In this document: positions 12,818 through 45,460 of the stretch, piece after piece
Layout of the letters: the number at the start of each line of letters is the position of its first letter
Position numbering within the stretch: the stretch's first letter is position 1
Assembly (NCBI GenBank): GCA_938007965.1
Contig: CALLMH010000025.1
Span: 36,069 to 100,068, forward strand
DNA: 64,000 nucleotides
Origin: an uncultured Saprospiraceae bacterium
GTDB lineage: Bacteria; Bacteroidota; Bacteroidia; Chitinophagales; Saprospiraceae
Reading direction: 5' to 3'
The notes under the pieces: generated by a model
Told to the model about the DNA's origin: nothing
The model's database searches: none
What the model saw: only the letters and a program-made list of their open reading frames with translations
Translations under genes and position numbers: made by a program

Positions 12818-12876
12818 GCAGGGTCTCAAATTAATGAAAGCCCCTGCATAACCCCAAAAAACCAATTGAAAACAAT
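12818..12876. ncRNA. Putative structured RNA element, tandem copy 1
   Basis: GCAGGG-tctcaaattaatgaaagc-CCCTGC then ATAACCCCAAAAAACCAATTGAAAACAAT. On the minus strand the hairpin is followed by TTTTTTTT (intrinsic-terminator-like). Confidence 0.5.
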
Positions 12877-12983
12877 CGTCTTTACTCCCGATTTGGAAGT
12901 GTATATTTTTAAATAATTACTTTTAACTATTGGATTTAATATCTTGATTTTTTGATTAAAATCAGATGGAGTTTTTAAAAACA

Positions 12984-13041
12984 GCAGGGATCCAAATTAA
13001 TGGACACCCTGCATAACCCCAAAAAACCAATTGAAAACAAT
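12984..13041. ncRNA. Putative structured RNA element, tandem copy 2
   Basis: GCAGGG-atccaaattaatggaca-CCCTGC then the same ATAACCCCAAAAAACCAATTGAAAACAAT; minus-strand tail TGTTTTT. Confidence 0.5.
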
Positions 13042-13519
13042 TATTCTTACTCTCTTAATGAGAGGATTTTTATTTTACATTTTATAGATTCGCTTTCGTA
13101 TCTATTTGTTAGACTTCATTATTGCAATTAAGTCACAAAAAAATTAAACATATTATAATTATTGCTTTTTAGTTCATAATTCAAAATGAATATTATTGAA
13201 TCTAATTCAAAATTTATAATTTATATGTTGTAAATCTTTTGATATATATTTAAGACAATACTTGATTACAGAAGTCACATTTTTTACAAAAAAAAATTAT
13301 TTATTTTAATTATTTATTCTGATCTATCATGTAAATAATTGATATACAATACATTGAGGTGGATGTAAATATTTTTTATGTATTTATTTAACCACTGTAT
13401 CGGAGTTGAATAGAAAATAATAAACAATTTTATATTGATTATTACGGTCTATAATTATCATCTTGTGAGAAATTACGAGACCCCAAAGAGTGAAATTAAC
13501 CGAGTAATAGTAGTTACTG

Positions 13520-15473: not shown

Positions 15474-15752
15474 TTAGGAGGGAATATGTCCTGTAGCATG
15501 CAGCGTATCACACTTCAGCGTATCGTATCTATCCTGTATGTGGGGATTTTGGATAATCCACGTATTGCAGCATAATAAAAAAACCTTACCGAATTAACGA
15601 TGATGCTTTTGCGTTGAGAGGGAAATCGGACCCTGACTTGACATAATATATAGATCAAGCAAACATTTTCGAAACGGTCTCATTTGTTTTAATGAATAAG
15701 GGGAGTATAATTCGAGATTAAAATCATTTTGTTAAATAAAATAATATTTAGA

Positions 15753-18221
15753 CTATAGTATAGTAATCGGAACTCTAAGCTTAGTTGCGACTGGAATATG
15801 AATATCTATATCCTCGCTTGGCGTTTCAATAGAAACGATTAGAGAGTACCTTCCTACAGAATCATATTTTTTCAAGTGTGTACGCTCTTTCCACCAGCCT
15901 ATAACCGGAAAAATACCTACATATTTACAAGCTGCAAGTTCGGTGGCTGTCATATTAACAAAATCAGAGTGCACTGAACCTAAATTTCGTGATTGAGAAC
16001 CAATTTCCCAATTGGCGCCTGTTCCACCTACTCCTTCAGCACCCTCAACTGCAGCATTTACTCTTTGAGCAAACTCTTCCTCTGATTCTGCAGGTTTATT
16101 AATTTCAAATTTGAGCCCATGGGACCTATATCTATAGCGATCTTTCCAGCCAATTTCTCCAGGACCTGGCTCTATAAAATAAGAAATAGTTACTCTCAAT
16201 GTAACTGGAGTATCTCCTAATTCAAGCAACGCTTCTTCCGGCCAAGGTAGTTCATAAAAGTGCATGTCTTTAGTTGTAACATTTGGCTTTCCTTCGGCTT
16301 TGTGAAAAGGCTGGATCTCTGATTGAGAAACCAAAGTTAAATTGTTACTCATTGAGTAAAGTGCTTTGTCTAAATCGGGTACCCCATAACCGCATATTCG
16401 TAATAGATTTCTATAGTTGGCTTTTGAAGAACCATCTATAAGAAATTGCTCTTTCATAACATCAGTCCATCGTGCTGAATGAATGAGTAATGCTCTTATT
16501 GTTTCAGGCCATGCTTCTGGATATTGAATTTGAATTTGAGCGGCCATCCAAGAGCCTTTTGCTGTCGCCGCGCTACTCATACTAAATGAATCAAATTGTC
16601 TATTAGCCGGTCTATAGTGCGTAGTCAAAACAGACAAATCATAACAGCCAGATGCAAAATCACCTTGTCCGTTCCTTGCTGCGTTTCCACCTTCTAAAAC
16701 AATATCTGGTTTAAATGGCCATTTCTTATCTTCCCATGTTCTAGATGTAGAACTAAATGGAGATAATCCACCGGCAGGAGCTATAGCCTCGAAATCCTCT
16801 AATCCAGGTTCTTCTATATTTGTTTTTTCTGTATAAGCACCGATTGTTAAGGCATTCCAAGATTGACCTGGAGATTCAACAGATGTTACCAAATTGGATT
16901 CAGGGTATGTTAACCATAATGCATTAGATGTATTTCCGCTAGATAATAATATAAGCCTTCTCTCTTCATCTTCTGCACCAGAGCATAATGCATCAATAGC
17001 TCCAGAATATGATGTCGGACGACCTTGATCAAAATTAGTATCAACACTCACTGCCATACAAATGATTCTTTTTCTATTAGGATTGGCTATTTCTGCATAA
17101 CTAATTACTTGTTTTGTTATGAAACCATAAAGCTCAGGATCATTGTGCTCTGCACCAGGCGGCAAAATTTTTCCTGATTCGAGTTTATGAGAAATGCCAA
17201 TAGCATTTTGACTTTCTATTGCTTCTTGTAAATCTCCAAATATTGCAACTCCAGCCATTTGGGTTCCATGACCTTCATCGTCATCAATTCCCCATTCCTG
17301 AACATATGTATATTTATCTCTATCATCTAATATAGGACCAATAAGTGCATGACCGTTGTTAATTCCAGTGTCCAAAATACAAATGGCGGTGTTGGTGCCA
17401 TCATCGCCAATCGCAATTCTCTGGCTCAGTTCTTCAACCCATTCAGCCTGATCCACATTATTTTCACTCATTATAAAACTAAGAGCTGTTTTTGCCTTTC
17501 GTAATTCAGCTAAATAGTTAAAAATTTGAATGAACTCGTTTAATTGGTCTTTATTACATCTACCTATGACAACCAATCGCTCTGGGAAATTGATAACTCC
17601 CTCCTTTAGTTCTATTCCTATTTGTTGGCAGGTCTCATTAAATATTTCTAGTACATTGAATTGAGGCTCAGTTCTTAGCCAAAACTCGCACCAAATAGGA
17701 TGCTCGGTTGGAATCAAATCAGGGTTGTCTTGCCAAAAAGACTCAATAAAAGCGAGAGAAATATCTTGAATGGAATTTACTAAGTCCTGATTGTTATGTT
17801 TTTTTTGGTTTGCGTTTTTAGGTTCTAAGTATTTTTCAATCTTTGAAATAAAATAACCTTCTTTCCCCTCGGGAACATAGATAGTTGCTACTGCTTCATC
17901 AAGTTCAGATGTTCTGACATTTAATAACCTGATCCCTCGGGAAATGTTTTCAACAGATTTTTCCTTTAATTCATGTTCTGGTAAGCCTCGAATTTCAATA
18001 TAGTGACCCGATTTAGTTTGTAAAGCTTGAGCAACCCTTTGTTTGTTTTGATGATCAACGTCAGTCCACAGTCTTTTAAATTGACCAATTAACCTTGTTC
18101 CATGCGATTGTATATTTCTTTCTGGATATTTGCTAGAACCCCTTCCCGGTTGTTTAGTAGTATATTCAATGGCTTGATTTACGTTATTGAGAAAGAGAAT
18201 TGGATATTTGTGTAATGGCAT
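15753..18221 (-). CDS. ietS: S8 subtilisin-like serine protease, IetS-like
   Basis: Triad motifs: Asp AICILDTGIN, His DDEGHGTQMAGVA, Ser FSMSSAATAKGSWMAA; ~250-aa N-terminal region before the protease core; 12 nt downstream of an AAA ATPase gene. Confidence 0.85.
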   Translation of the reverse strand: MPLHKYPILFLNNVNQAIEYTTKQPGRGSSKYPERNIQSHGTRLIGQFKRLWTDVDHQNKQRVAQALQTKSGHYIEIRGLPEHELKEKSVENISRGIRLLNVRTSELDEAVATIYVPEGKEGYFISKIEKYLEPKNANQKKHNNQDLVNSIQDISLAFIESFWQDNPDLIPTEHPIWCEFWLRTEPQFNVLEIFNETCQQIGIELKEGVINFPERLVVIGRCNKDQLNEFIQIFNYLAELRKAKTALSFIMSENNVDQAEWVEELSQRIAIGDDGTNTAICILDTGINNGHALIGPILDDRDKYTYVQEWGIDDDEGHGTQMAGVAIFGDLQEAIESQNAIGISHKLESGKILPPGAEHNDPELYGFITKQVISYAEIANPNRKRIICMAVSVDTNFDQGRPTSYSGAIDALCSGAEDEERRLILLSSGNTSNALWLTYPESNLVTSVESPGQSWNALTIGAYTEKTNIEEPGLEDFEAIAPAGGLSPFSSTSRTWEDKKWPFKPDIVLEGGNAARNGQGDFASGCYDLSVLTTHYRPANRQFDSFSMSSAATAKGSWMAAQIQIQYPEAWPETIRALLIHSARWTDVMKEQFLIDGSSKANYRNLLRICGYGVPDLDKALYSMSNNLTLVSQSEIQPFHKAEGKPNVTTKDMHFYELPWPEEALLELGDTPVTLRVTISYFIEPGPGEIGWKDRYRYRSHGLKFEINKPAESEEEFAQRVNAAVEGAEGVGGTGANWEIGSQSRNLGSVHSDFVNMTATELAACKYVGIFPVIGWWKERTHLKKYDSVGRYSLIVSIETPSEDIDIHIPVATKLRVPITIL

Positions 18222-18233
18222 ATTCTAGTAATC

Positions 18234-19193
18234 TTATTTTCTTTTATATATTTCTTGCCTGTTTTGAAGCATAGATATAAATGCTTTCTTTTGGACCTGT
18301 TTTTTGCCACTTAATATCATGTCTTTAACCGCATCCTCGCAAGCTAATGATATTTCAGCATGACTTAGCCCCACAAAACTATCTAGTGATATATTTTCAA
18401 TTTTAAAACCGTATTTAAAATTAATTAGCTTATTTTTTATTAGCTCAAAAGCTTCTTCTTTCGATGGTAGGTTATAAAATAATGTATCATCAAACCTTCT
18501 AAATAATGCGGTATCTAGTAATCCAATATTATTTGTTGCCGCAAGAATAAAACTATTGGATTGATCTTGTTCCAAGAATTGTAAAAATGCATTTAAAACT
18601 CTCCTCATCTCGCCAACTTCATTATCTCTAGCGCGTTCAGTACCAATGGCATCAAATTCATCAAACAGATAAACTCCTTTATTTGATTCAATAAAATCAA
18701 AAACCATTCGTAATTTTGCCGCTGTTTCTCCCATATATTTAGTGACTATTTTATCAATTAATATCACGTAAATAGGGAGGTCAAGTTCATTAGCAATGAT
18801 TGATGCCGTAAAAGTTTTACCTGTACCAGGAGGACCAGCTAAAAGAACTTTCCGTCGATTGGTCATTCCATATTTAGACAATTTGGACTTTTGCTTGTAT
18901 TCTTTTAGAATTCTTTCTATTCTATTTTTTAATTCATCAGAAGCAACTAACTGCGAAAGTCTTGTCTCAGGCTCTACCCATTGCATTAGATCAGATAGAT
19001 TCTTTTTATTTGGTATTTTTCTTATTAGAGTTTTAGATCCGCTCTCAATAAGTTTTTTGATGTCATTTGCTAAATTACCATGACCATTTCTAGCTTCGGA
19101 AGCTGCCAACTGAAGAGCAATCGTCTTAAACCTATTCCCATCTTTATCAAAATGAGATTTTATTAAAGCCTTTATTTGGTCACTGTTTGCCAT
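18234..19193 (-). CDS. ietA: AAA+ ATPase, IetA-like
   Basis: Walker A LLAGPPGTGKTFTAS, Walker B GVYLFDEFDAIGTER, sensor 1 ILAATNN, DTALFRRFDD arginine-finger region. Confidence 0.85.
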   Translation of the reverse strand: MANSDQIKALIKSHFDKDGNRFKTIALQLAASEARNGHGNLANDIKKLIESGSKTLIRKIPNKKNLSDLMQWVEPETRLSQLVASDELKNRIERILKEYKQKSKLSKYGMTNRRKVLLAGPPGTGKTFTASIIANELDLPIYVILIDKIVTKYMGETAAKLRMVFDFIESNKGVYLFDEFDAIGTERARDNEVGEMRRVLNAFLQFLEQDQSNSFILAATNNIGLLDTALFRRFDDTLFYNLPSKEEAFELIKNKLINFKYGFKIENISLDSFVGLSHAEISLACEDAVKDMILSGKKQVQKKAFISMLQNRQEIYKRK

Positions 19194-19530
19194 TATAATT
19201 TTATTCCAAGTTGAATTCGTCTCTGGATTAATCTTATTGTAAAGATACTAATATTACTATAGATATTGAAGACTAAAATTCATTCGAAAAAGGAGTTTAA
19301 ATTTCAAGAGACTTAAAATAATTTATAAGTCAATTTCTAAGCAGATTACTCTGGATTTCTAATATGCTCAGATGCGCCTATAAAATTATGCATGTAGAAA
19401 CGAAACGAAATTTGATAATGATCTAGGTTCATTTGTTTAAACAATGATTTACAAAACTTTAGGCCACTATCAAAATTCAAAAAAATGAGTCATGAAACGT
19501 AAGTTCATAACTCATTCATGTCAAGAATTG

Positions 19531-19613
19531 TGCCCGGAGCGGGACTCGAACCCGCACGTACGTAGTACACATGTCCCTCAAACATGCCTGTCTACCAATT
19601 TCAGCACCCGGGC
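19531..19613 (-). tRNA. tRNA-Leu (anticodon GAG)
   Basis: Reverse complement GCCCGGGTGCTGAAATTGGTAGACAGGCATGTTTGAGGGACATGTGTACTACGTACGTGCGGGTTCGAGTCCCGCTCCGGGCA; acceptor stem, anticodon loop TTGAGGG, GGTTCGAGTCC T-arm, long variable arm. Confidence 0.95.
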
Positions 19614-33013: not shown

Positions 33014-34696
33014 ATGTTGGACATACTACAGTTAAATGATATGCTCGTTCCAGAGCTTAAGGCACTCGCTGAGAAAATAGACCTGAAAGGTTATAAAAGA
33101 CTAAGCAAACAAGATTTAATATATAAAATTCTAGACCATCAGGCACTAGTTGGCAAGACAGAAGTTGAGAGTTCAGCTCCTGCTGCCAAAAAAGCCCCTG
33201 CTAGAAAGGCTCCCGCTAAGAAAACTCCTGCACGAAAAGCACCAGTTAAAAAAGCTCCTGCCAAAAAAACAGAAACAAAATCTTCTGAAAAAGAGGATAA
33301 AAGCAAAGCTAGCCCGACTGCTCAAACATCAAAGAAAGGAGCAAAGCAAGATGCTGCAAAAGCTGAGAACAAAGATGTGGCTGCTGAAGCTCCTAAACCA
33401 AAGAAAATCCCAAAACACATACGAGAGCAAATGGAAGCTGAGGCTGCTGGGATGCCAGCTCCTAAGCCAAAAGGGAAAAAAGCTGATTTGTCTGCAAACA
33501 AATCACAAAATCAGAGGACTACGCCAACTCCTCCAGCAGCACCAGTCAAAAAAGAACCAAAGTTCAATATTGATTTCGATGGTGTGGTAGAGGGTGAAGG
33601 TATCTTGGAAATGATGGCTGATGGTTATGGATTCTTAAGGTCTTCAGATTATAATTACTTATCATCACCTGATGATGTATATGTATCTCCATCTCAGATC
33701 AAATTATTTGGTTTGAAAACAGGGGACACGGTACTAGGAGCTGTAAGACCACCAAAAGAAGGTGAAAAATACTTTGCACTACTTAGAGTTTCCAAAATTA
33801 ATGGTCGTGAGCCATCTCAAGTGAGAGAAAGAGTACCCTTCGATTATTTAACACCATTGTTCCCAGACGAAAAATTCAACCTAAACAGTAGGCCTGATGG
33901 TAAGGATTATGGAACACGTATGATCGACTTGTTTACTCCGATCGGGAAAGGTCAGAGAGGGTTGATCGTGGCACAGCCAAAGACGGGTAAGACCTTCCTA
34001 CTAAAAGATATTGCCAATGCGATATCAACGAATCACCCAGAATGTTATCTAATCGTTCTTTTGATAGATGAAAGACCAGAAGAGGTGACAGATATGAGGC
34101 GAAGCGTAAACGCTGAAGTTATAGCATCTACATTCGATCAGACTGCTGAAAATCATGTAAGAGTAGCAAATATCATTCTCGAAAAAGCGAAAAGATTGAC
34201 AGAATCTGGACAAGATGTAGTCGTGTTATTAGACTCTATTACTAGGTTAGCTAGAGCGTATAATACTGTAGCACCTACCAGCGGTAGAGTACTGTCCGGT
34301 GGTGTAGAAGCAAATGCACTTCACAAGCCGAAAAAGTTCTTCGGTGCTGCAAGAAATATCGAGGGGGGAGGATCATTGACTATCTTGGCTACTGCGTTGA
34401 CAGATACAGGGTCTAAGATGGATGAAGTGATCTTCGAAGAATTCAAAGGTACAGGTAACATGGAGCTCCAATTGGATAGAACATTAGCCAATAAGCGTAT
34501 GTATCCTGCAATCGATCTTACAAGATCATCTACTAGAAGGGAAGAATTGCTTCTAAATGAAGATTCGTTGAAGAAAATGTTCGTTCTTCGAAATCACTTG
34601 GCAGATATGAAACCTGATGAAGCAATGCAGTTTCTGAGAAAGCACATGGTTGGAACTCGTAATAATGAAGAGTTTATTGCTTCCATGAACGGATAA
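33014..34696 (+). CDS. rho: Transcription termination factor Rho with Lys/Ala/Pro-rich N-terminal insertion
   Basis: [40 protein letters not shown], low-complexity [15 protein letters not shown], then [42 protein letters not shown] at 33014 preferred over track 32876, which sits in the promoter -7 box. Confidence 0.96.
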
Positions 34697-35548: not shown

Positions 35549-35806
35549 TGTCCGTCTGATTGTTGCCAGCTTCGAAAGTATACTATTTATTTCCATTTTT
35601 AATATTATAATTATTAGATTTAGTCGTCGATTAAAAATGATGGATTAGCTCATAATTTCCATCTGTATTATTGGAATAAAGTTTCTTGTAGGGGTTATCA
35701 AGTGTCGAATTTTTATAGAGTAGAATAATTAAACTCATAGGGATGAGTTTATTATTGTAATTATGAATCGCGATTGCCAAGGAAACTTTGTATTAAGTAC
35801 ACCGTT

Positions 35807-38800
35807 ATGTTATTAAATTGGAAATCAACGATAACAATTACACTTATTCTACTGTTTTCCTTGGTTAGAACTGATTTAGCCGCTCAGTTTGATGTGCTTC
35901 CTTGTACAGACCCTGATAATAATGGTGTGGGGTGTTTGTGTAGTACGGCGGGTGTCCTTTGTACTCCTGACTTGCTCGATGGATTTAAATTTGAAATGTC
36001 AGATATTGAAAATGACGGGGATTTTCCTTCATTCCCTTTTCCTGGGTTTTTTGACTTATGTCCAGGTGATGCTTCTCAAGATGGCTTTCCGAATAACGTA
36101 AACTTCTTCGCTTTTGTAGTATGGTGCGAATCTATAACTTTTGATGTTTTTCTTAGTGACTGTGTCGATTATCCAGGTGATCCAGTTTCCTTTGGTGTTC
36201 AGATGGCATTATTTGCAAGTTGTGGATCAGGGAACAGTGGATGGGATCCAGTCGCTTGTATTACTAATGGTAACGAAACGTGCTATGATAATGAAGCTGA
36301 CGTGCCAGCAGTACAAACCTTTTCCGCTTCTGGATTAGAAATAGGAGATACGTATTATTTTATGGTGGATGGTTGCGGACGATCAACTTGTACTGTGACA
36401 ATAGATGTGATAGGGACTTGTGGTACCGGCGTAATAGATCCATGGACTACTGGTATCACAGGTGAAGAAGAAGTTTGTGTAGGAGACGTTGTTACATACA
36501 CCAGTGAGGATTTGGATGGAGCAACTAGTTTCTACTATTATTTAGATGGAACATTAATAGATGATGGAGAAGAATTATTGTTCACAGATATCACTTGGGA
36601 TACCGAAGGTACTTATGAACTATGCGTCGATGTGGCTAACCTTCCATGCATAGTAGAATCAGATGATCCACCTCAGAATTGTATGACCATCGTGGTTACA
36701 GACCCAGGTGATGGTGAGATTACTGCAGATCCCGCATTACTTTGTCCTGATGGATTAAGTACTATTACTGTAACTGATAATAATACAAATCCAGATCTGT
36801 CACAATATATAATCATCATCGGTCCGGATGGACTTGTCAATCAAGTGGTCGAGGGATTAACGACAACTCTCACTTATGACATGTGCGGTGAGTTCACTGC
36901 CTACTATTACAGCTTTATTACTTTAGATAATCCTATTGTTCCGATGGTAGGTGATTCCTGGATGCTTCCTGATTGTTCTGGAAATTGTTGTTATTTAGAT
37001 GAAGTACTTATAACTTTTGAAGATACTGAAGCTCCTGTTTTTGATATAGAACCAGATGATATTACCCTAGATTGTGCAGATGATATAGCTCCAGATGAAT
37101 CACTTACTTGGACGGATAATTGCGCAGGAACAGGAGATGTGATGCCGTTAGTAGTTGAAGATTTCACTTTATGTGATGGTGGCTCGGTGGTAAGAACGTG
37201 GAGTTTTACAGACAGTTGTACCAACAGCGTAGAACATATACAGACCATAACAATAGATCCGATTCCATTACCCGTATTTACTACACTACCTGGTGATAGC
37301 ACTATCAATTGTGATACTGCACAGATTTTTGAGCCTCTAATTTTGGAGTATACAAACTCAGCAGTCGGAGCCTGTGATATTTCAGGATCTGTAATGCCTA
37401 CATCTGTGGGTACATTTGATCTATGTGGAAGCTCAGTTACTTATTCTTGGGAGTATACAGATATGTGTGGCCGTACCATAGATCATACTCAAGTAGTAAC
37501 TGTAGAAGAAGTCGGAGCTGCAAATGATTTTATAGATCCACCTGAGGATATCACGATATCTTGTATGGATTGGCAGTCATTTACTCCTGAAATACTAAGC
37601 TATACAAATGATCAAAATGGATCTTGTGAAATCAGCGGAACTGTAGATGCTGTTACCACAGATACCCATGAGCTATGTGGAAGTTCTATCACTTATAATT
37701 GGGAGTTTACAGACGTTTGCGGTAGAACGATAATGCACGAACAAGCGGTAACTGTAGAGCTTGCTCCCGAAGCGGCATTTGTAGATCCTCCCTCGGATGT
37801 GACGATTACCTGTGACGAATTACAGACCTTCACGCCTGCAGTATTGACTTATACGAATGGTGGTACAGGCGCATGTCAGATAGAAGGGACAGTAGACCCA
37901 GTCGGCGATGGCACATTAGATATCTGTGGAAATTCCGTGACCTACACGTGGGACTTTACAGACGATTGTGGGCGACCGATCACGCACAGTCAGACGGTGA
38001 CAGTAGATCCAGTTCCTGAGGCTGCATTTGTAGATCCGCCAGGAAGTATTACTATTAATTGTGATGACTTGGAAACCTTTTCTCCCGTAGTGCTCAGTTA
38101 TACGAATGGAGGAATAGGGGCTTGTTTGATTGAAGGAACCACAGATCCAGTAGCGGATGGCACATTAGACCTTTGTGGAAATTCAGTGACCTACACATGG
38201 GACTTTACAGACGATTGTGGGCGACCGATTATGCACAGTCAGACGGTGACAGTAGATCCAATATCACCTCCAGCCTTCATAGATATACCAATGGACGAAA
38301 CTTTGGATTGTAACGCGAAACCAAATGAGGGAGAAGGGCCACTGCTCAATTATATAAACGGGGGTGTGGACGCTTGTGAGATTGCGGGAGAAGTTACTCC
38401 GACAGAAGTATATAATGTTACTGAGTGCGGAGGCTCGATTGTTTATACTTGGACATTTACTGACGACTGTGGCACGACGATAACAGAATCTCAAACGATT
38501 ACTGTAGCTCCAGCTCCGCAAGCCCAGTTCGAAGATTTACCGCCATCAAGTATTACAATCGAATGTAATGAAAATACAAATACAGGCCCAGATTTAGTGA
38601 TCACGAATGGTGAAACTGGAGATTGTTTGATAGAGAATACTGTATCACCAACTAAAGTAGGTGACGCTGATATATGTGGTGGTTCGTTCGATTTTGTTTG
38701 GGAATTCATGGATGATTGTGGACGTACTACATCATTCTCTCAGACGGTAAATGTGAATCCATCACCAATTGCGGTATTTGACAATATTCCTATGGATATA

Positions 38801-41800
38801 GACATCGATTGCAGTTTGAATGGTGATACACCGGATAATCTAGGATACTCTAATGGACAAACTGCTGATTGTGGGATATCAGGGGAAGTTTCTGGGGTAA
38901 GATCAGGAACAGTAGATTATTGCGGTGGTACATTGATTGATTCTTGGGAATTCATAGATGAATGTGGGCGATCGATAATGACATCGAGAAATGTAAACGT
39001 CGCGCCTGCATCTCCTGCAGAATATGTAAATCCTCCAGCGGATGTGACTGTACCATGTGCGAATGTAAATACTATTTCCACCACGCTAAATTATACTAAT
39101 AGTGGGGCGGGAGTTTGTAGTATCTCAGGAGTCAGTACAGCCGTGGTAAGTGGTAATTATGATGTATGTGGAGGGTCGCTTATATACACATGGAGTTTTG
39201 TAGATGATTGTGGACGATCGATTTCTTATTCACAGAATATAACGGTAGATCCAGCACCTGACCCTGCATTTATCAATCCACCTGGAGACTTGACGATTGG
39301 TTGTAATGATACTTATAACGGCGCAGATATACTCGATTATACCAATGGTGCTTCAGGAGTATGTGAGTTATTTGGTGCGATCATACCGATAGAATCACAA
39401 ACAGATAATATTATTACGAATACTTGGGAATTTGAGCTTCCTTGTTCGGGAGATTTTCTATCACATGTACAGACTGTGACGCTTAGTACCGTACCAGATA
39501 TATCGATCAGTCCTGGTAGTGTATTTTTATGTTTGGGTGATAGTTATGATTTGCAAGACGTGATTGTAGATGATGCTGCGGGCACGGATATTACGATTAC
39601 TTATCACGATGCATTTCCACCTACAGCTGCTAATGAAATACCACCAGTCATCAATCCGACTTCGGACTTTAATTATGTGATCAATGCGACCAATGAATTT
39701 GGATGCGAAGATTTTGAGTTGATAAGTATACTCATCGAAGAACCGCCATTTGCTGGAGAAGACCAATCGACGACGGTTTGTAGTGACGGGTTCCCTCTTG
39801 ATCTATTTAGTTTTATTCCTCCGTTTGCGGATCAGAATGGATCTTGGTTGGATCTTGACGGTATCGGAGCTAATATATCTAATCCATTTGGAGTGACATT
39901 TAACAATGTGTCACCAGGTAATTATATGTTGTATTACATTGTGTTTAGTTCTACAGTATGTGAGAATGATACGATGATACTTAATGTAGAAGTGATAGAG
40001 GATGTGATGTTTGATATTACAGAGATTACGTGTATTAATGACAATAATTTTTATGAAGTATATTTAAATTCTAATGGATTCGATATACAAGCGACAGAAG
40101 GTATATTGACGAATATTACGGGTAATGAATATGTTGTAACAGATATTCCGATTACGACTGGAGTATTTATCAGTGCTTTTGAATCTGTCAGTGGATGTTC
40201 CGTTACGATATTTGTAGATATACCTAATTGTGATTGTCCTGATATAAGTCCTCCTAATGGTGATAATATAAGTATTTGTATAGATGAGCAACCTCAGACA
40301 CTGTCAGTCTCCGTACCTGCAGGGATGACTGCAAATTGGTATGAAACACAGAATTCAACTACTGCCATTTTGGAAGGATCGGTTGATTTTATTATTCAAG
40401 GGTTATCGGCGGGAGTGTATAGTTACTATGTAGAGACTTATGATCCTGCAACTGATTGTACCAGTAATACGAAATTAAAGATTGACGTAGAAATCAATGA
40501 TCTTCCTGAAGTAAACGATACAACAATAATTATTTGTGATCTTGATAATGATGGAACGGAGACTATATCCTTACAATCATTTAATGGATCAGTCAGTAGT
40601 AACCCAGCAAATACATTTACATACTTTGCACTATCTGCGAATGCCGAGACTAACACTGGAGCACTTGCAGATAATCTTGATATCAGTCTAGGGCTAAGTA
40701 TTTTTTATGTAAGGGTAGAAAACTCAGCTAGTTGTATCAGTATCGCAGAGCTAAGACTTATTTTATCAGATTTACCCGAAGCTACTGTCACAGCTACAGC
40801 GCCTTCTTGTATAGCGGATCAAGACGGAGTTATAGACATCACACCAACGAATGTTGATGGTGTGATGACGACTAGTCTTGATGGGGTCACGTATACGACT
40901 GATACCCAGTATAATGGGCTCCCGTCAGGTGTGTATACTGTCTTTGTACAAGACGAGAATGAGTGTCAATCTTCCTATGATGTCGTAATTCCTGATGGAT
41001 TGGAGATTGTATTCACAACATTCGGCTTTGAGTGTAATGATAATGGATCTAATACAGATCCTTCCGATGATTTTTATACCTTTTCTTTATTAATAGAAAA
41101 TAATATAGGAAACACTGGAAATTACAATGTAATATTCAATGGTTCGACGCAGTATACTTATTCTTACGGAAGTAATGAATCATTTACAATACCAGTCGAT
41201 CAAGGGAATAATATAGATATAGTGATTGCAGATGTTGAATTTTTATGTACACAAAACCAGACTTTTGGTCCATTGAATCCATGTTCTACGAATTGTGAAA
41301 TAAGTATAGATGAACTAGGTTTCATGTGTAGTGACGGAGGTACGGATACTGATCCATCTGATGATTTTTACACCGTTATGATCAATGCATCTGCGATGAA
41401 CGGTTCGGCTAATAATACATATAATGTATTCCTAGACGGAGTACTTTTATATAATTTTGACTATGGAATAAATGAAACATTCCAAGTCCCTGCATCAGGC
41501 AATAATCTAAGTATCACTTGTCAAGATAATGAAGATGTACAATGTCAAACTTCTCAAGAAATAGGTCCTTTGGTAGTATGTAGTGGTGGATGCCAAATTG
41601 CACTTGATATTATCTCCTCTGAATGTTCTGATAATGGAAGTGCGACAATTCAAACCGATGATTTCTATACCTATACTATAAATGGTAATATCATTAATGG
41701 CGATGGCCTTACGCAATTCGAATTATTCGTCGATGGTATAAGTCAGGGTTCATTTAACTATGCGGAGGATGTGGTATTCGATATTCCCACGGATGATATG

Positions 41801-44800
41801 ACTCACATTATTTCTATAAGTGATAATTCTAATGCGGGATGTGTAGATGCATTTACTACTGAAGTTTTGACCAATTGCTCGACAGACTGTGAGATAGTAC
41901 TCAATGAAATAAATGAAGAATGTATCGATAATGGCACTCCGCAGGATCCTAATGATGATTTTTATGAAATCACCATCAATGCAGCAGCTACTAATGGAGC
42001 ATCAAATCTGATGTATAACCTGATTGTAGATGGTACTTTCTTGGGCGCGTATTCTTACGATCAAGATAATGTGATAAGTATTCCAGCGGATGGCGTAGTC
42101 CATACCATCTTAATCCAAGACAGTGAAGATCTCGCTTGTGAATTAGAAGTCCAGACCATGATCTTAGCTTCATGTTCTAATAATTGTCAAAATCAGTTGA
42201 CGATACAAGATTTCGAGTGTTTTGATAATGGAACGGCTACTGATATAACTGATGATTTCTATGAATTTACTTTGTCGGGAACATTGATAAATGGTAGTAG
42301 TAATTCGAGTTTCCAATTATTTATAAACGGAATCTTGGAAGATACTTATACTTATGCAGAAGAGATCAGTCTTACATTGCCAGCCGATGGTGTGATCTAC
42401 ACATTGATGATGCAGGATGTAGATGATTCATCTTGTACTTCAGAGGTACTTACTGATGAACTGGTATCATGTTCTACAGATTGTGAGATTGTATCTGAGG
42501 AATTAACTTATCAATGCTTCGATAATGGAACGCCTACCGACCCCACGGATGACTTTATCGAAGTTACTGTCAATGCGTCCGCTACCAATGGATCAACGAC
42601 GGGAATGTACAATCTATACTTCGATGGTGTACTCGAAGGCATATTTAGTTACGGTGCTCCACATACATTTTCACTGCCCGCGAATGATCAAGTAGTAACG
42701 ATAAGATTCCAAGATAGCCAAGATCTACAGTGCGATTTAGAGCTAGATACTGAGTCATTATCTCCGTGTTCTGATGGGTGCTTGATCGGTTTGAACGTTA
42801 TAAATGTCGAATGTTTCAATAATGGAACGCCAACTGATGTAGGAGATGACTTTTACGAGATTACAATTCAGGGAGAGATTCTCAATGGCAATTCATCTAT
42901 AGATTTTGAAATGTTTGTAGATGGAATATCCCAAGGAGATGGCGATTATGGATCCACGTATGTATTGATGATTCCTGCGGATGGCATGCTTCATGAAATA
43001 GAAATAATAGACAAAGAAGATCTCACATGCACTGCCTCATATACGACGGATGTACTCACTTCGTGCTCTACAGATTGTGAAATATCGCTGATAGATTATA
43101 CTTCTACATGTTTTGATAGCGGAACATTAGATGATCCAAGTGATGATTTCTATGAAATTAGTTTCTCTACGAATAGTATCAATGGATCTAGTGGATATAG
43201 CCTAACTATTGATGGAATAATAGAAAACAATTATAACTACGGAGAAGTAGTTAATCTATCATTTCCAGCGGATGGATCTAGTATTATATTGGCCCTTGAA
43301 GATTTGGTAGACGATCAATGTAAGGTCAATCAGGTAGCTGGTCCATTCGATCCTTGTTCTAATCTATGCACGATCGAACCTATGGTTATGAATTCTGAGT
43401 GTTTTGATAATGGAAGCCCGATAGATCCGTCAGATGATTTTTGGGAGATTACATTATTTGTAAATCCTGCCAATGGAGAGACAGCACCGACCTACGATCT
43501 TAGTATTGATGGGGTGTCAGAAGGCACATATGCATATAGTCAGGATAATATCATCATCATTCTTGCGGATAATGACACGCACGTGATTACAGTCAGTGAC
43601 AGTGATGATCCTACCTGTCAAGCAACGATATCTACAGAATTATTAGGATTTTGCAGTACACCATGTGAGATAGCTGCCAGCTATAATAATGTCTCATGCG
43701 AAAACAATGGTACCAATGATACTTCGGACGATGATATATACTTTGTGGATTTATTAGTAACTAATCCGAGTGCAGGAGAATATAATATCCCTATCTACAC
43801 TATCAATGGAGCGTACAATGAAGTCATGAATATTGGTCCATTTAATATCTCTGATGGACCTCTAACCATTCAAATTATTGATATGGAACAAAATTTATGC
43901 TCCATAGAACTAGAACTGATTCCTCCGGCTCCCTGTAGTGATTGTGTACAGATCGCGGAAGCAGGAACAGGGGGTGTATTATCATGTGAAATCTCAGAAA
44001 TTATATTGACAGGAATCTCATCAGAAGAAGGAGATTACGCTTGGTTTGGACCCGCAGGAAATTTAGTAAGTGAAACATTAGAAACTTCCGCGGTGAGTGT
44101 CGGTACTTACACATTTATCGTGACGTATAGTGATGGATGTACTGCTGAGGATCAAGTAGAGGTTACAGCTGATGTTGATCTACCCATAGCCTTACTTACT
44201 AGTGATGGAGATATTACGTGTAATAAACTTACTACATCCTTAGACGGGAGTGAATCAGGAAGTACGAGTGATTATCTATTTTATTGGTTTGATGAAGATA
44301 ATAACCTATTGTCCCAAGATCAGATATTTGAGACAGATATAGCGGGTGTGTATTTCTTACAAGTGGAATCAGTCGACAATAATTGCAAGTCAGCATTCGA
44401 ACCAGTCATAGTAGAATCACTGATCAATGAGCCTGTAGCAATCATCTATGCTGAACCAGATAGTGTGATAGATTGTGTGATTCAGTCCATTACACTATTC
44501 ACAGATCAAGAAGAAAATGTGGGTTACACATGGACACTAGAAGGCAATCCTGTGATGAATGCAGTGCAGCTTGAGATCTCTGAGATTGGCACATATGGTT
44601 TGCTCGCTATAGATTCCATAACCGGTTGTGCTGGAGAAGCAAATATTCAGATATCTAGCCTGGTCGGATATCCAAACATAAGTCTAGAAGCACTAGAAAT
44701 GCTCGATTGTGAGAATGAAGAAGTGGTCATCACTGCAAGTAGCCTACAGTCTGGGCAGAACTTCAGTTCTTATTGGCAAGATTCAGATCAGAATATAATC

Positions 44801-45460
44801 TTAGAGAACGTGGATGAATTGACAGTGGATCAACCTGGTGAATATATCTTCACATTAATAGACAATGATAACGGCTGTGAGAATGCGGATACGATCAATA
44901 TATCACTATTAATCACGGAAGTAGATGTCGAGACGACTCCCGAGGTAACGTATATAAATGGTCAAGGCGTAACCTTATCTGCAACTGTGAATTTGACTAC
45001 ATCGGAGATCGCTGCGATACAGTGGTCTCCTGGTGATAATATGAGTTGTCCTACTTGTCTGACTACGCAGATAGCGAATCCGACGGATAGTATATATATC
45101 ATCTCAATTACTGATATCAATGGATGCCAAGACAGTGCTCAGGTAAGATTGATCAGAAAAGAAAAGCCTGAATTATATATCCCTAATGTATTTAATCCGA
45201 ATAGTAATGCAGGGAATGATAGATTTAGAATCTTCGGAAATGAAGAAGTGGATCGAATTCTTTCTATGAAAGTATTTGATAGATGGGGCAATGCGGTCTA
45301 CATCTCTACAACAGTGGAATTGAATAACCTCTCGAGTGGCTGGGACGGAAAATTCAATCAGAAACCAGTGGAGCAGGGAGTATATGTTTATCTGATAGAA
45401 GTGCTTTTTGCGGATGGTTCTGTTGAGATCTTTCATGGAGACTTGACAGTTTTAAGATAA
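35807..45460 (+). CDS. Giant secreted surface protein with two tandem repeat families and gliding-motility/T9SS type B C-terminal domain
   Basis: Signal peptide MLLNWKSTITITLILLFSLVRTDLAAQ from ATG 35807; ~10 units of [AVEQ]F.[DN].PP.D.T..C...CG.S..Y.W.F.D.CGR; ~10 units of ECFDNGTPTDPSDDFYEIT; C-terminus LYIPNVFNPNSNAGNDRFRIFG...VFDRWGNAVY...GWDGKFNQKPVEQGVYVYLIEV. Confidence 0.9.
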   Translation: MLLNWKSTITITLILLFSLVRTDLAAQFDVLPCTDPDNNGVGCLCSTAGVLCTPDLLDGFKFEMSDIENDGDFPSFPFPGFFDLCPGDASQDGFPNNVNFFAFVVWCESITFDVFLSDCVDYPGDPVSFGVQMALFASCGSGNSGWDPVACITNGNETCYDNEADVPAVQTFSASGLEIGDTYYFMVDGCGRSTCTVTIDVIGTCGTGVIDPWTTGITGEEEVCVGDVVTYTSEDLDGATSFYYYLDGTLIDDGEELLFTDITWDTEGTYELCVDVANLPCIVESDDPPQNCMTIVVTDPGDGEITADPALLCPDGLSTITVTDNNTNPDLSQYIIIIGPDGLVNQVVEGLTTTLTYDMCGEFTAYYYSFITLDNPIVPMVGDSWMLPDCSGNCCYLDEVLITFEDTEAPVFDIEPDDITLDCADDIAPDESLTWTDNCAGTGDVMPLVVEDFTLCDGGSVVRTWSFTDSCTNSVEHIQTITIDPIPLPVFTTLPGDSTINCDTAQIFEPLILEYTNSAVGACDISGSVMPTSVGTFDLCGSSVTYSWEYTDMCGRTIDHTQVVTVEEVGAANDFIDPPEDITISCMDWQSFTPEILSYTNDQNGSCEISGTVDAVTTDTHELCGSSITYNWEFTDVCGRTIMHEQAVTVELAPEAAFVDPPSDVTITCDELQTFTPAVLTYTNGGTGACQIEGTVDPVGDGTLDICGNSVTYTWDFTDDCGRPITHSQTVTVDPVPEAAFVDPPGSITINCDDLETFSPVVLSYTNGGIGACLIEGTTDPVADGTLDLCGNSVTYTWDFTDDCGRPIMHSQTVTVDPISPPAFIDIPMDETLDCNAKPNEGEGPLLNYINGGVDACEIAGEVTPTEVYNVTECGGSIVYTWTFTDDCGTTITESQTITVAPAPQAQFEDLPPSSITIECNENTNTGPDLVITNGETGDCLIENTVSPTKVGDADICGGSFDFVWEFMDDCGRTTSFSQTVNVNPSPIAVFDNIPMDIDIDCSLNGDTPDNLGYSNGQTADCGISGEVSGVRSGTVDYCGGTLIDSWEFIDECGRSIMTSRNVNVAPASPAEYVNPPADVTVPCANVNTISTTLNYTNSGAGVCSISGVSTAVVSGNYDVCGGSLIYTWSFVDDCGRSISYSQNITVDPAPDPAFINPPGDLTIGCNDTYNGADILDYTNGASGVCELFGAIIPIESQTDNIITNTWEFELPCSGDFLSHVQTVTLSTVPDISISPGSVFLCLGDSYDLQDVIVDDAAGTDITITYHDAFPPTAANEIPPVINPTSDFNYVINATNEFGCEDFELISILIEEPPFAGEDQSTTVCSDGFPLDLFSFIPPFADQNGSWLDLDGIGANISNPFGVTFNNVSPGNYMLYYIVFSSTVCENDTMILNVEVIEDVMFDITEITCINDNNFYEVYLNSNGFDIQATEGILTNITGNEYVVTDIPITTGVFISAFESVSGCSVTIFVDIPNCDCPDISPPNGDNISICIDEQPQTLSVSVPAGMTANWYETQNSTTAILEGSVDFIIQGLSAGVYSYYVETYDPATDCTSNTKLKIDVEINDLPEVNDTTIIICDLDNDGTETISLQSFNGSVSSNPANTFTYFALSANAETNTGALADNLDISLGLSIFYVRVENSASCISIAELRLILSDLPEATVTATAPSCIADQDGVIDITPTNVDGVMTTSLDGVTYTTDTQYNGLPSGVYTVFVQDENECQSSYDVVIPDGLEIVFTTFGFECNDNGSNTDPSDDFYTFSLLIENNIGNTGNYNVIFNGSTQYTYSYGSNESFTIPVDQGNNIDIVIADVEFLCTQNQTFGPLNPCSTNCEISIDELGFMCSDGGTDTDPSDDFYTVMINASAMNGSANNTYNVFLDGVLLYNFDYGINETFQVPASGNNLSITCQDNEDVQCQTSQEIGPLVVCSGGCQIALDIISSECSDNGSATIQTDDFYTYTINGNIINGDGLTQFELFVDGISQGSFNYAEDVVFDIPTDDMTHIISISDNSNAGCVDAFTTEVLTNCSTDCEIVLNEINEECIDNGTPQDPNDDFYEITINAAATNGASNLMYNLIVDGTFLGAYSYDQDNVISIPADGVVHTILIQDSEDLACELEVQTMILASCSNNCQNQLTIQDFECFDNGTATDITDDFYEFTLSGTLINGSSNSSFQLFINGILEDTYTYAEEISLTLPADGVIYTLMMQDVDDSSCTSEVLTDELVSCSTDCEIVSEELTYQCFDNGTPTDPTDDFIEVTVNASATNGSTTGMYNLYFDGVLEGIFSYGAPHTFSLPANDQVVTIRFQDSQDLQCDLELDTESLSPCSDGCLIGLNVINVECFNNGTPTDVGDDFYEITIQGEILNGNSSIDFEMFVDGISQGDGDYGSTYVLMIPADGMLHEIEIIDKEDLTCTASYTTDVLTSCSTDCEISLIDYTSTCFDSGTLDDPSDDFYEISFSTNSINGSSGYSLTIDGIIENNYNYGEVVNLSFPADGSSIILALEDLVDDQCKVNQVAGPFDPCSNLCTIEPMVMNSECFDNGSPIDPSDDFWEITLFVNPANGETAPTYDLSIDGVSEGTYAYSQDNIIIILADNDTHVITVSDSDDPTCQATISTELLGFCSTPCEIAASYNNVSCENNGTNDTSDDDIYFVDLLVTNPSAGEYNIPIYTINGAYNEVMNIGPFNISDGPLTIQIIDMEQNLCSIELELIPPAPCSDCVQIAEAGTGGVLSCEISEIILTGISSEEGDYAWFGPAGNLVSETLETSAVSVGTYTFIVTYSDGCTAEDQVEVTADVDLPIALLTSDGDITCNKLTTSLDGSESGSTSDYLFYWFDEDNNLLSQDQIFETDIAGVYFLQVESVDNNCKSAFEPVIVESLINEPVAIIYAEPDSVIDCVIQSITLFTDQEENVGYTWTLEGNPVMNAVQLEISEIGTYGLLAIDSITGCAGEANIQISSLVGYPNISLEALEMLDCENEEVVITASSLQSGQNFSSYWQDSDQNIILENVDELTVDQPGEYIFTLIDNDNGCENADTINISLLITEVDVETTPEVTYINGQGVTLSATVNLTTSEIAAIQWSPGDNMSCPTCLTTQIANPTDSIYIISITDINGCQDSAQVRLIRKEKPELYIPNVFNPNSNAGNDRFRIFGNEEVDRILSMKVFDRWGNAVYISTTVELNNLSSGWDGKFNQKPVEQGVYVYLIEVLFADGSVEIFHGDLTVLR
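37907..38011 (+). repeat. 105-bp intragenic near-identical repeat, copy 1
   Basis: gatggcacattaga...gacggtgacagtagatcca; about 7 mismatches to 38156-38260. Confidence 0.85.
38156..38260 (+). repeat. 105-bp intragenic near-identical repeat, copy 2
   Basis: Same as copy 1. Confidence 0.85.

Follow-up and report, generated by a model that had tools for sequence, protein, structure and literature searches.

The AAA ATPase and S8 subtilase genes described here most probably constitute a horizontally acquired, toxin-antitoxin-like IetAS module of the branch represented by plasmid pTiC58, in which the protease would be a toxin restrained by the ATPase; we put the probability of this reading at roughly 70%. 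The two genes form a cassette within the window, i.e. the whole analyzed stretch of 64,000 nucleotides from a Saprospiraceae contig. Both are intact, with no broken motif, but the cassette is an ordinary one for the IetAS family.

Cassette organization and family assignment

The compact bicistron recognized in the initial annotation was recovered exactly: on the minus strand, the ATPase gene comes first and the protease gene second (Table 1). The terminator-like hairpin that follows the tRNA gene is common to the window and congener G002, and marks one side of the insert. A segment at 15571-15613 is possibly a remnant of the DCC terminator marking the other side, with a borderline alignment score (46, the shuffle maximum also being 46). 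No confident promoter was assigned in the region upstream of the cassette, which holds no exact match to the Bacteroidota-type pattern; in the whole window this pattern (TTTG-N17-23-TAnnTTTG) occurs 10 times (2.6 expected), with no occurrence directly upstream of the cassette. Folding of segment 15630-15770 was no better than that of shuffled sequences, so no terminator was found at the 3′ end of ietS.

Table 1. Features of the cassette and its borders (window coordinates)
Feature	Position	Strand	Basis or remark
ietA-like gene (AAA ATPase, 319 aa)	18234..19193	minus	start ATG; ORF, PADLOC, Pfam
intercistronic gap (12 nt)	18222..18233	minus	ORF coordinates
ietS-like gene (S8 subtilase, 822 aa)	15753..18221	minus	start ATG; ORF, PADLOC, Pfam
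intergenic remainder between DCC1-like gene and ietS	15476..15752		
upstream region of cassette, presumably with its own promoter	19200..19475	minus	beyond tRNA terminator; inference
terminator-like hairpin AATGAGTTATGAA...TTCATGACTCATTTTTTT after tRNA-Leu	19480..19517	minus	folding z = -3.3
tRNA-Leu (GAG)	19530..19613	minus	cassette immediately downstream of tRNA 3′ end

The ATPase matched the Pfam AAA model (8e-30), and the protease covered the whole 288-position Peptidase_S8 model (1.9e-61). Conservation of motifs was scored over the 64 ATPases and 58 proteases gathered in this study, the window pair included. The Walker A motif (GPPGTGKT, residues 120-127; G120, G123, G125, K126 and T127), Walker B D178 and E179, sensor-1 N221 and the arginine fingers R232/R233 are present in all 64 ATPases, and the subtilase residues D284, H318 and S550 with the oxyanion N430 in all 58 proteases. 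The Walker A/B and Asp/His/Ser motifs are thus intact, as had been annotated, and their conservation is far beyond chance.

IetAS was reportedly first described by Yamamoto et al. in 2009 (as cited in PMC8562856 and PMC5006074), on plasmid pTiC58 of Agrobacterium fabrum. The AAA and S8 pair of this plasmid (NC_003065, 97873-101373; WP_012655016.1 and WP_010974867.1), which we infer to be pTiC58 ietAS from its composition, served as a yardstick and was run through the same PADLOC and NCBIfam libraries. In PADLOC both proteins of the window were matched (IetA 4.3e-71, 238 bits; IetS 6.8e-32, 108 bits), the pTiC58 pair scoring about the same or lower (239 and 86 bits, respectively). The two ATPases align end to end (143/316 positions, 45% identity, E 2e-89). 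The alignment of the proteases (304 of 840 columns, 36% identity, E 2e-167) spans residues 2-815, so that the C-terminal domain and the first ~270 aa are both covered. The proposed match of the pair to IetAS therefore holds.

The outcome was different for the NCBIfam IteA/IteS antiphage equivalogs (NF042959/NF042956), whose cut-offs are 510 and 900 bits. The window pair reached 190.1 and 57.0 bits, below these cut-offs, with significant E-values (6e-56 and 1e-15); the pTiC58 pair also stayed below them (198.8 and 39.9 bits). The suggested comparison with IetA and IetS models is thus borne out for PADLOC but not for the NCBIfam antiphage models, which the pTiC58 pair misses as well. Given the end-to-end homology and the like scores of the pTiC58 pair on the family models, the window pair, judged from its sequence, belongs to the pTiC58 branch over its full length. 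The NCBIfam antiphage branch comprises the same two protein families, but it is separate and distant from both pairs. An IetS of the more typical PADLOC type, from viral contig L202 (329 bits against PDLC02198), could be aligned with the window protease in the catalytic part only, at 24% identity, which points to a deep split between the IetS branches.

The initial annotation had attached both a toxin-antitoxin and an antiphage label to the pair. Toxin-antitoxin behaviour is the better supported of the two, because the window and pTiC58 pairs both fall far below the NCBIfam antiphage cut-offs; the antiphage label comes from a different branch, and phage defence would here be an extension by homology. 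Since the window pair and the founder miss the NCBIfam models, antiphage activity may not reach the pTiC58 branch.

Two further features of the window concern other genes. A 3228-aa ORF (35774-45460) combines domains of HYR-like and Ig-like type with a type IX secretion signal domain (CHU_C) at its C-terminus. The rho gene carries a 15-nt tandem repeat in 5.7 copies (33183-33268), placed between the N-terminal and RNA-binding domains of rho.

Insertion site and distribution

The cassette is a mobile accessory element, horizontally acquired, located between a DCC1-like gene and tRNA-Leu, as indicated by an empty site, the lowest GC3 in the window, sporadic presence in relatives, and frequency on plasmids and viral contigs. 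In the nearest congener (G001) the interval between the DCC gene and tRNA-Leu is 128 nt, versus 4056 nt in the window, where it holds nothing but the cassette. The gene order in G001 is radA, DCC1-like, 128 nt, tRNA-Leu(GAG), glycosyltransferase, tRNA-Leu(TAG), tig, clpP and clpX. The window cassette is likewise flanked by radA-DCC on one side and by tRNA-Leu, glycosyltransferase, tig, clpP and clpX on the other, in agreement with the housekeeping neighbours annotated initially. In G003 the DCC gene and tRNA-Leu are 78 nt apart, the relative orientation of the tRNA is reversed, and the pair is absent from this site. GC3 of the cassette genes is 0.23-0.25, the lowest of the 17 window genes measured (0.30-0.42 in the fifteen others).

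The ATPase was found in 3/41 near relatives and in 18/396 genomes of the phylum, and the protease in 10/399 genomes of the order, the source genome being counted each time. Congener G002 has no pair beside either flanking marker; its pair lies on a different contig and belongs to a different clade (ATPase 44%). A conserved housekeeping protease of the lineage, a reading to which the housekeeping neighbours would lend themselves, is refuted by the empty site in G001, the absence from the same site in G003, the sporadic distribution and the displaced copy of G002, and can be regarded as extremely improbable. The view of the cassette as an isolated accessory insertion is in turn upheld by the empty site and by its absence from most relatives.

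Plasmid records are frequent among the matches, with 485 for the protease and 724 for the ATPase, and 340 of the 485 protease-bearing records are predicted to be conjugative. In IMG/VR, 51 loci encode the protease. Such a distribution would suit a selfish addiction or stability module that kills cells losing its carrier and has no specific antiphage role, in which case the window copy would be a stranded chromosomal passenger. Stability and incompatibility were the original functions reported for pTiC58 ietAS and for SgiAT (PMC5006074, PMC8562856), and the window pair belongs to the pTiC58 branch. However, the pair is chromosomal here; integrases, plasmid genes and repeats are all missing from its surroundings, and although a mobile carrier is apparently lacking, both its genes and its catalytic residues remain intact. 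Moreover, IetAS of a Pf phage is associated with phage resistance, by a mechanism stated there as unknown (PMC11878078). We consider a role in addiction alone rather unlikely.

Integrase-mediated insertion into the tRNA gene was rejected: neither a duplicated tRNA 3′ end nor an integrase, transposase or terminal repeats were detected. No att-like repeats or plasmid genes were found around the cassette, and no word of at least 9 nt is common to the tRNA region and the intergenic region on the far side. Membership of a defence island was also rejected, as the neighbours in the window are housekeeping genes and enrichment around relatives is weak. Compared with random positions in the same genomes, a small control, type I specificity genes occurred at 4/139 vs 1/137 and methyltransferase genes at 5/139 vs 2/137.

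Several observations concern the tRNA and radA sides of the locus. Partial, decayed duplicates of tRNA-Leu(GAG) flank the intact tRNA in G002 (L124:6215-6686), where the tRNA terminator is duplicated too, and in G001 (L123:4336-4594), which suggests that the tRNA-Leu(GAG) locus is a recurrent recombination site. In two of 28 related loci (L070 and L087) a tRNA of the same strand likewise lies a short distance upstream of the ATPase gene start, and the toxin-antitoxin regions of mycoplasmas are bordered by tRNAs and repeats (PMC8562856). Upstream of radA the window contains a 46-nt direct repeat (12842-12887 and 13007-13052; 91% identical, 165 nt apart), and similar repeats occur upstream of radA in three congeners.

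Gene pairing and predicted protein structures

The paired relatives examined all have the two genes on one strand with the ATPase gene first; the spacing between them ranges from -110 to +53 nt, apart from L180, where it is 309 nt by mechanical ORF start. The protein distance matrices of IetA and IetS are correlated over 35 pairs (r = 0.91; maximum of 2000 label permutations 0.26), a value uncorrected for ancestry that the loci have in common. The main groupings recur in both trees (the window with G018, an Alteromonas plasmid with G600, and pTiC58 with G710), which are discordant for a few long branches (Segatella and L093). Together these data show tight pairing and coevolution of IetA and IetS.

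Departures from this arrangement were also observed. In L081:3340-6379 (minus strand) IetA is followed by Septu ptuA and ptuB (PADLOC 2e-134 and 3e-82) instead of IetS, with a 28-nt overlap. This IetA is 94% identical to that of L080, from the same genus; if real, the locus would represent partner exchange, but the contig is short (6.8 kb) with a flank order unlike that of L080, and an assembly cause is possible. L094:362-5987 and L095:348-5969 encode a divergent IetA (36%) without IetS, beside genes for the specificity and restriction subunits of type I restriction systems. An IetA (50% identical) with no IetS detected lies in L085:8592-9548, and an OLD-like ATPase and genes of restriction type share its region. 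The IMG/VR contig L196 (1-12798) carries, amid many ankyrin-repeat genes, an IetA-like ATPase of 269 aa that is devoid of the N-terminal helices, and no IetS.

No solved structure of IetAS was found, and both proteins were modelled with AlphaFold2. The ATPase model (alignment of 41 sequences, mean pLDDT 89.9) comprises a three-helix N-terminal bundle (residues 4-53), a low-confidence linker and a single AAA module, whose nearest fold matches are 26S Rpt, FtsH and PAN. A Vps4 structure was also among the fold matches of the whole model, and the bundle might conceivably correspond to the three-helix MIT domain of Vps4-like ATPases. Pore loop 1 is Y153-M154-G155 (F/Y-M/L-G in the family), with the aromatic residue conserved in 62/64 and the glycine in 63/64 aligned ATPases; judged from these residues, IetA keeps a protein-threading pore loop.

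The fold and the canonical aromatic-hydrophobic-glycine loop might point to an ATP-dependent protease machine, with IetA as an activator that unfolds substrates and threads them into IetS for degradation of phage or aberrant proteins. Unlike FtsH, 26S Rpt and PAN, which share this fold and loop, IetA has no membrane segment and no metalloprotease or proteasome partner; its partner is a separate S8 subtilase, for which no proteasome-like compartment is predicted. Furthermore, the protease of characterised relatives is toxic without the ATPase, and the ATPase either neutralises it or becomes essential only in its presence (PMC8562856, PMC5006074). A protease machine is therefore quite improbable.

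The protease model (alignment of 38 sequences, mean pLDDT 86.0) contains the catalytic domain (residues 275-613), a C-terminal beta-rich domain (~620-800) and, N-terminally, elements ordered as two ferredoxin-like folds (~72-156 and ~176-242), the beta-alpha-beta-beta-alpha-beta order being predicted in the first and a similar one in the second. The best PDB fold matches of the model are pro-subtilisins with their propeptide, ProN-Tk-SP being at the top, in an output that gives no residue ranges. Viral fold matches include subtilases, an I9-annotated protein and, at weak E-values, RRM proteins. The latter have a ferredoxin-like fold. Inhibitor_I9 of Pfam matched none of the 38 member proteases, and profiles of the two N-terminal domains gave nothing significant against PDB sequences. 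W181 of the second ferredoxin-like domain is invariant (58/58 proteases), so this domain is functionally constrained.

Predicted secondary structure and fold matches make two N-terminal ferredoxin-like domains probable, the second of them propeptide-like. The initial annotation had proposed an N-terminal sensing or ATPase-interaction region of ~250 aa. A distinct pre-catalytic region does exist, with a length of ~270 aa instead; it appears closer to ferredoxin-like domains of the subtilisin-propeptide type than to a dedicated sensor, and may still contact the ATPase. No signal peptide is evident by eye, and IetS is thus presumably cytoplasmic.

The pore loop of the ATPase and the propeptide-like N-terminus of the protease suggest an ATPase-controlled, zymogen-like enzyme. 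In a speculative elaboration, the tandem ferredoxin domains would serve as a brake that the pore of the ATPase ring holds or resets, and loss of ATPase function would unleash the protease; such gating is unlikely on present evidence. That the trigger would be lost ATPase function, and not simply a lost binding partner, is equally doubtful. If true, such gating would introduce a novel mode of regulation among toxin-antitoxin and defence proteases.

Proposed mode of action and significance

Experimentally studied relatives have the same two protein types. SgiAT of Salmonella genomic island 1 (SGI1) consists of an AAA antitoxin followed by a subtilisin-like toxin, and in E. coli the protease is toxic while the ATPase protects; it is reported to be 50% and 36% identical to IetA and IetS of pTiC58, values comparable to those of the window pair (45% and 36%) (PMC5006074). 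It differs in being located on a mobilisable resistance island, the comparison drawing on its published description. For TA132/133 of Mycoplasma mycoides, toxicity of the protease and its neutralisation by the ATPase were shown, and deletion of the ATPase alone was lethal (PMC8562856). This pair is also chromosomal, but it is presumably distant in sequence and its protease has 757 aa. The pTiC58 pair shares gene order, spacing class, end-to-end homology, motifs and family-model scores with the window pair, but it resides on a Ti plasmid, whereas the window pair is chromosomal, tRNA-adjacent and deeply diverged in sequence. According to a review, ietAS is one of the systems that phages overcome through mutations in their functional proteins (PMC10286901).

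By analogy with these systems, the protease of the window pair would be the toxin and the ATPase the antitoxin. IetS would be a cytoplasmic subtilase, toxic when free, and IetA, made in step with it, would keep it inactive. Infection or element loss would upset IetA, either because it is depleted or because the complex senses a trigger, and release IetS, which would cleave cellular proteins and cause growth stop or cell death. Phage would thereby be limited, or loss of the element penalised. Defence against phage in the present host could be proposed by the same analogy only.

What this analysis adds is a branch assignment, an empty site, a calibration of the family models on the pTiC58 founder and two leads from structure. 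It extends the pTiC58 branch to a Bacteroidota chromosome, with a clean empty-site comparison, and the pore loop and the propeptide-like N-terminus are testable leads on the mechanism of IetAS. As the founding branch escapes the NCBIfam antiphage models, the branches of this family must be kept apart in automated calls and in functional claims.
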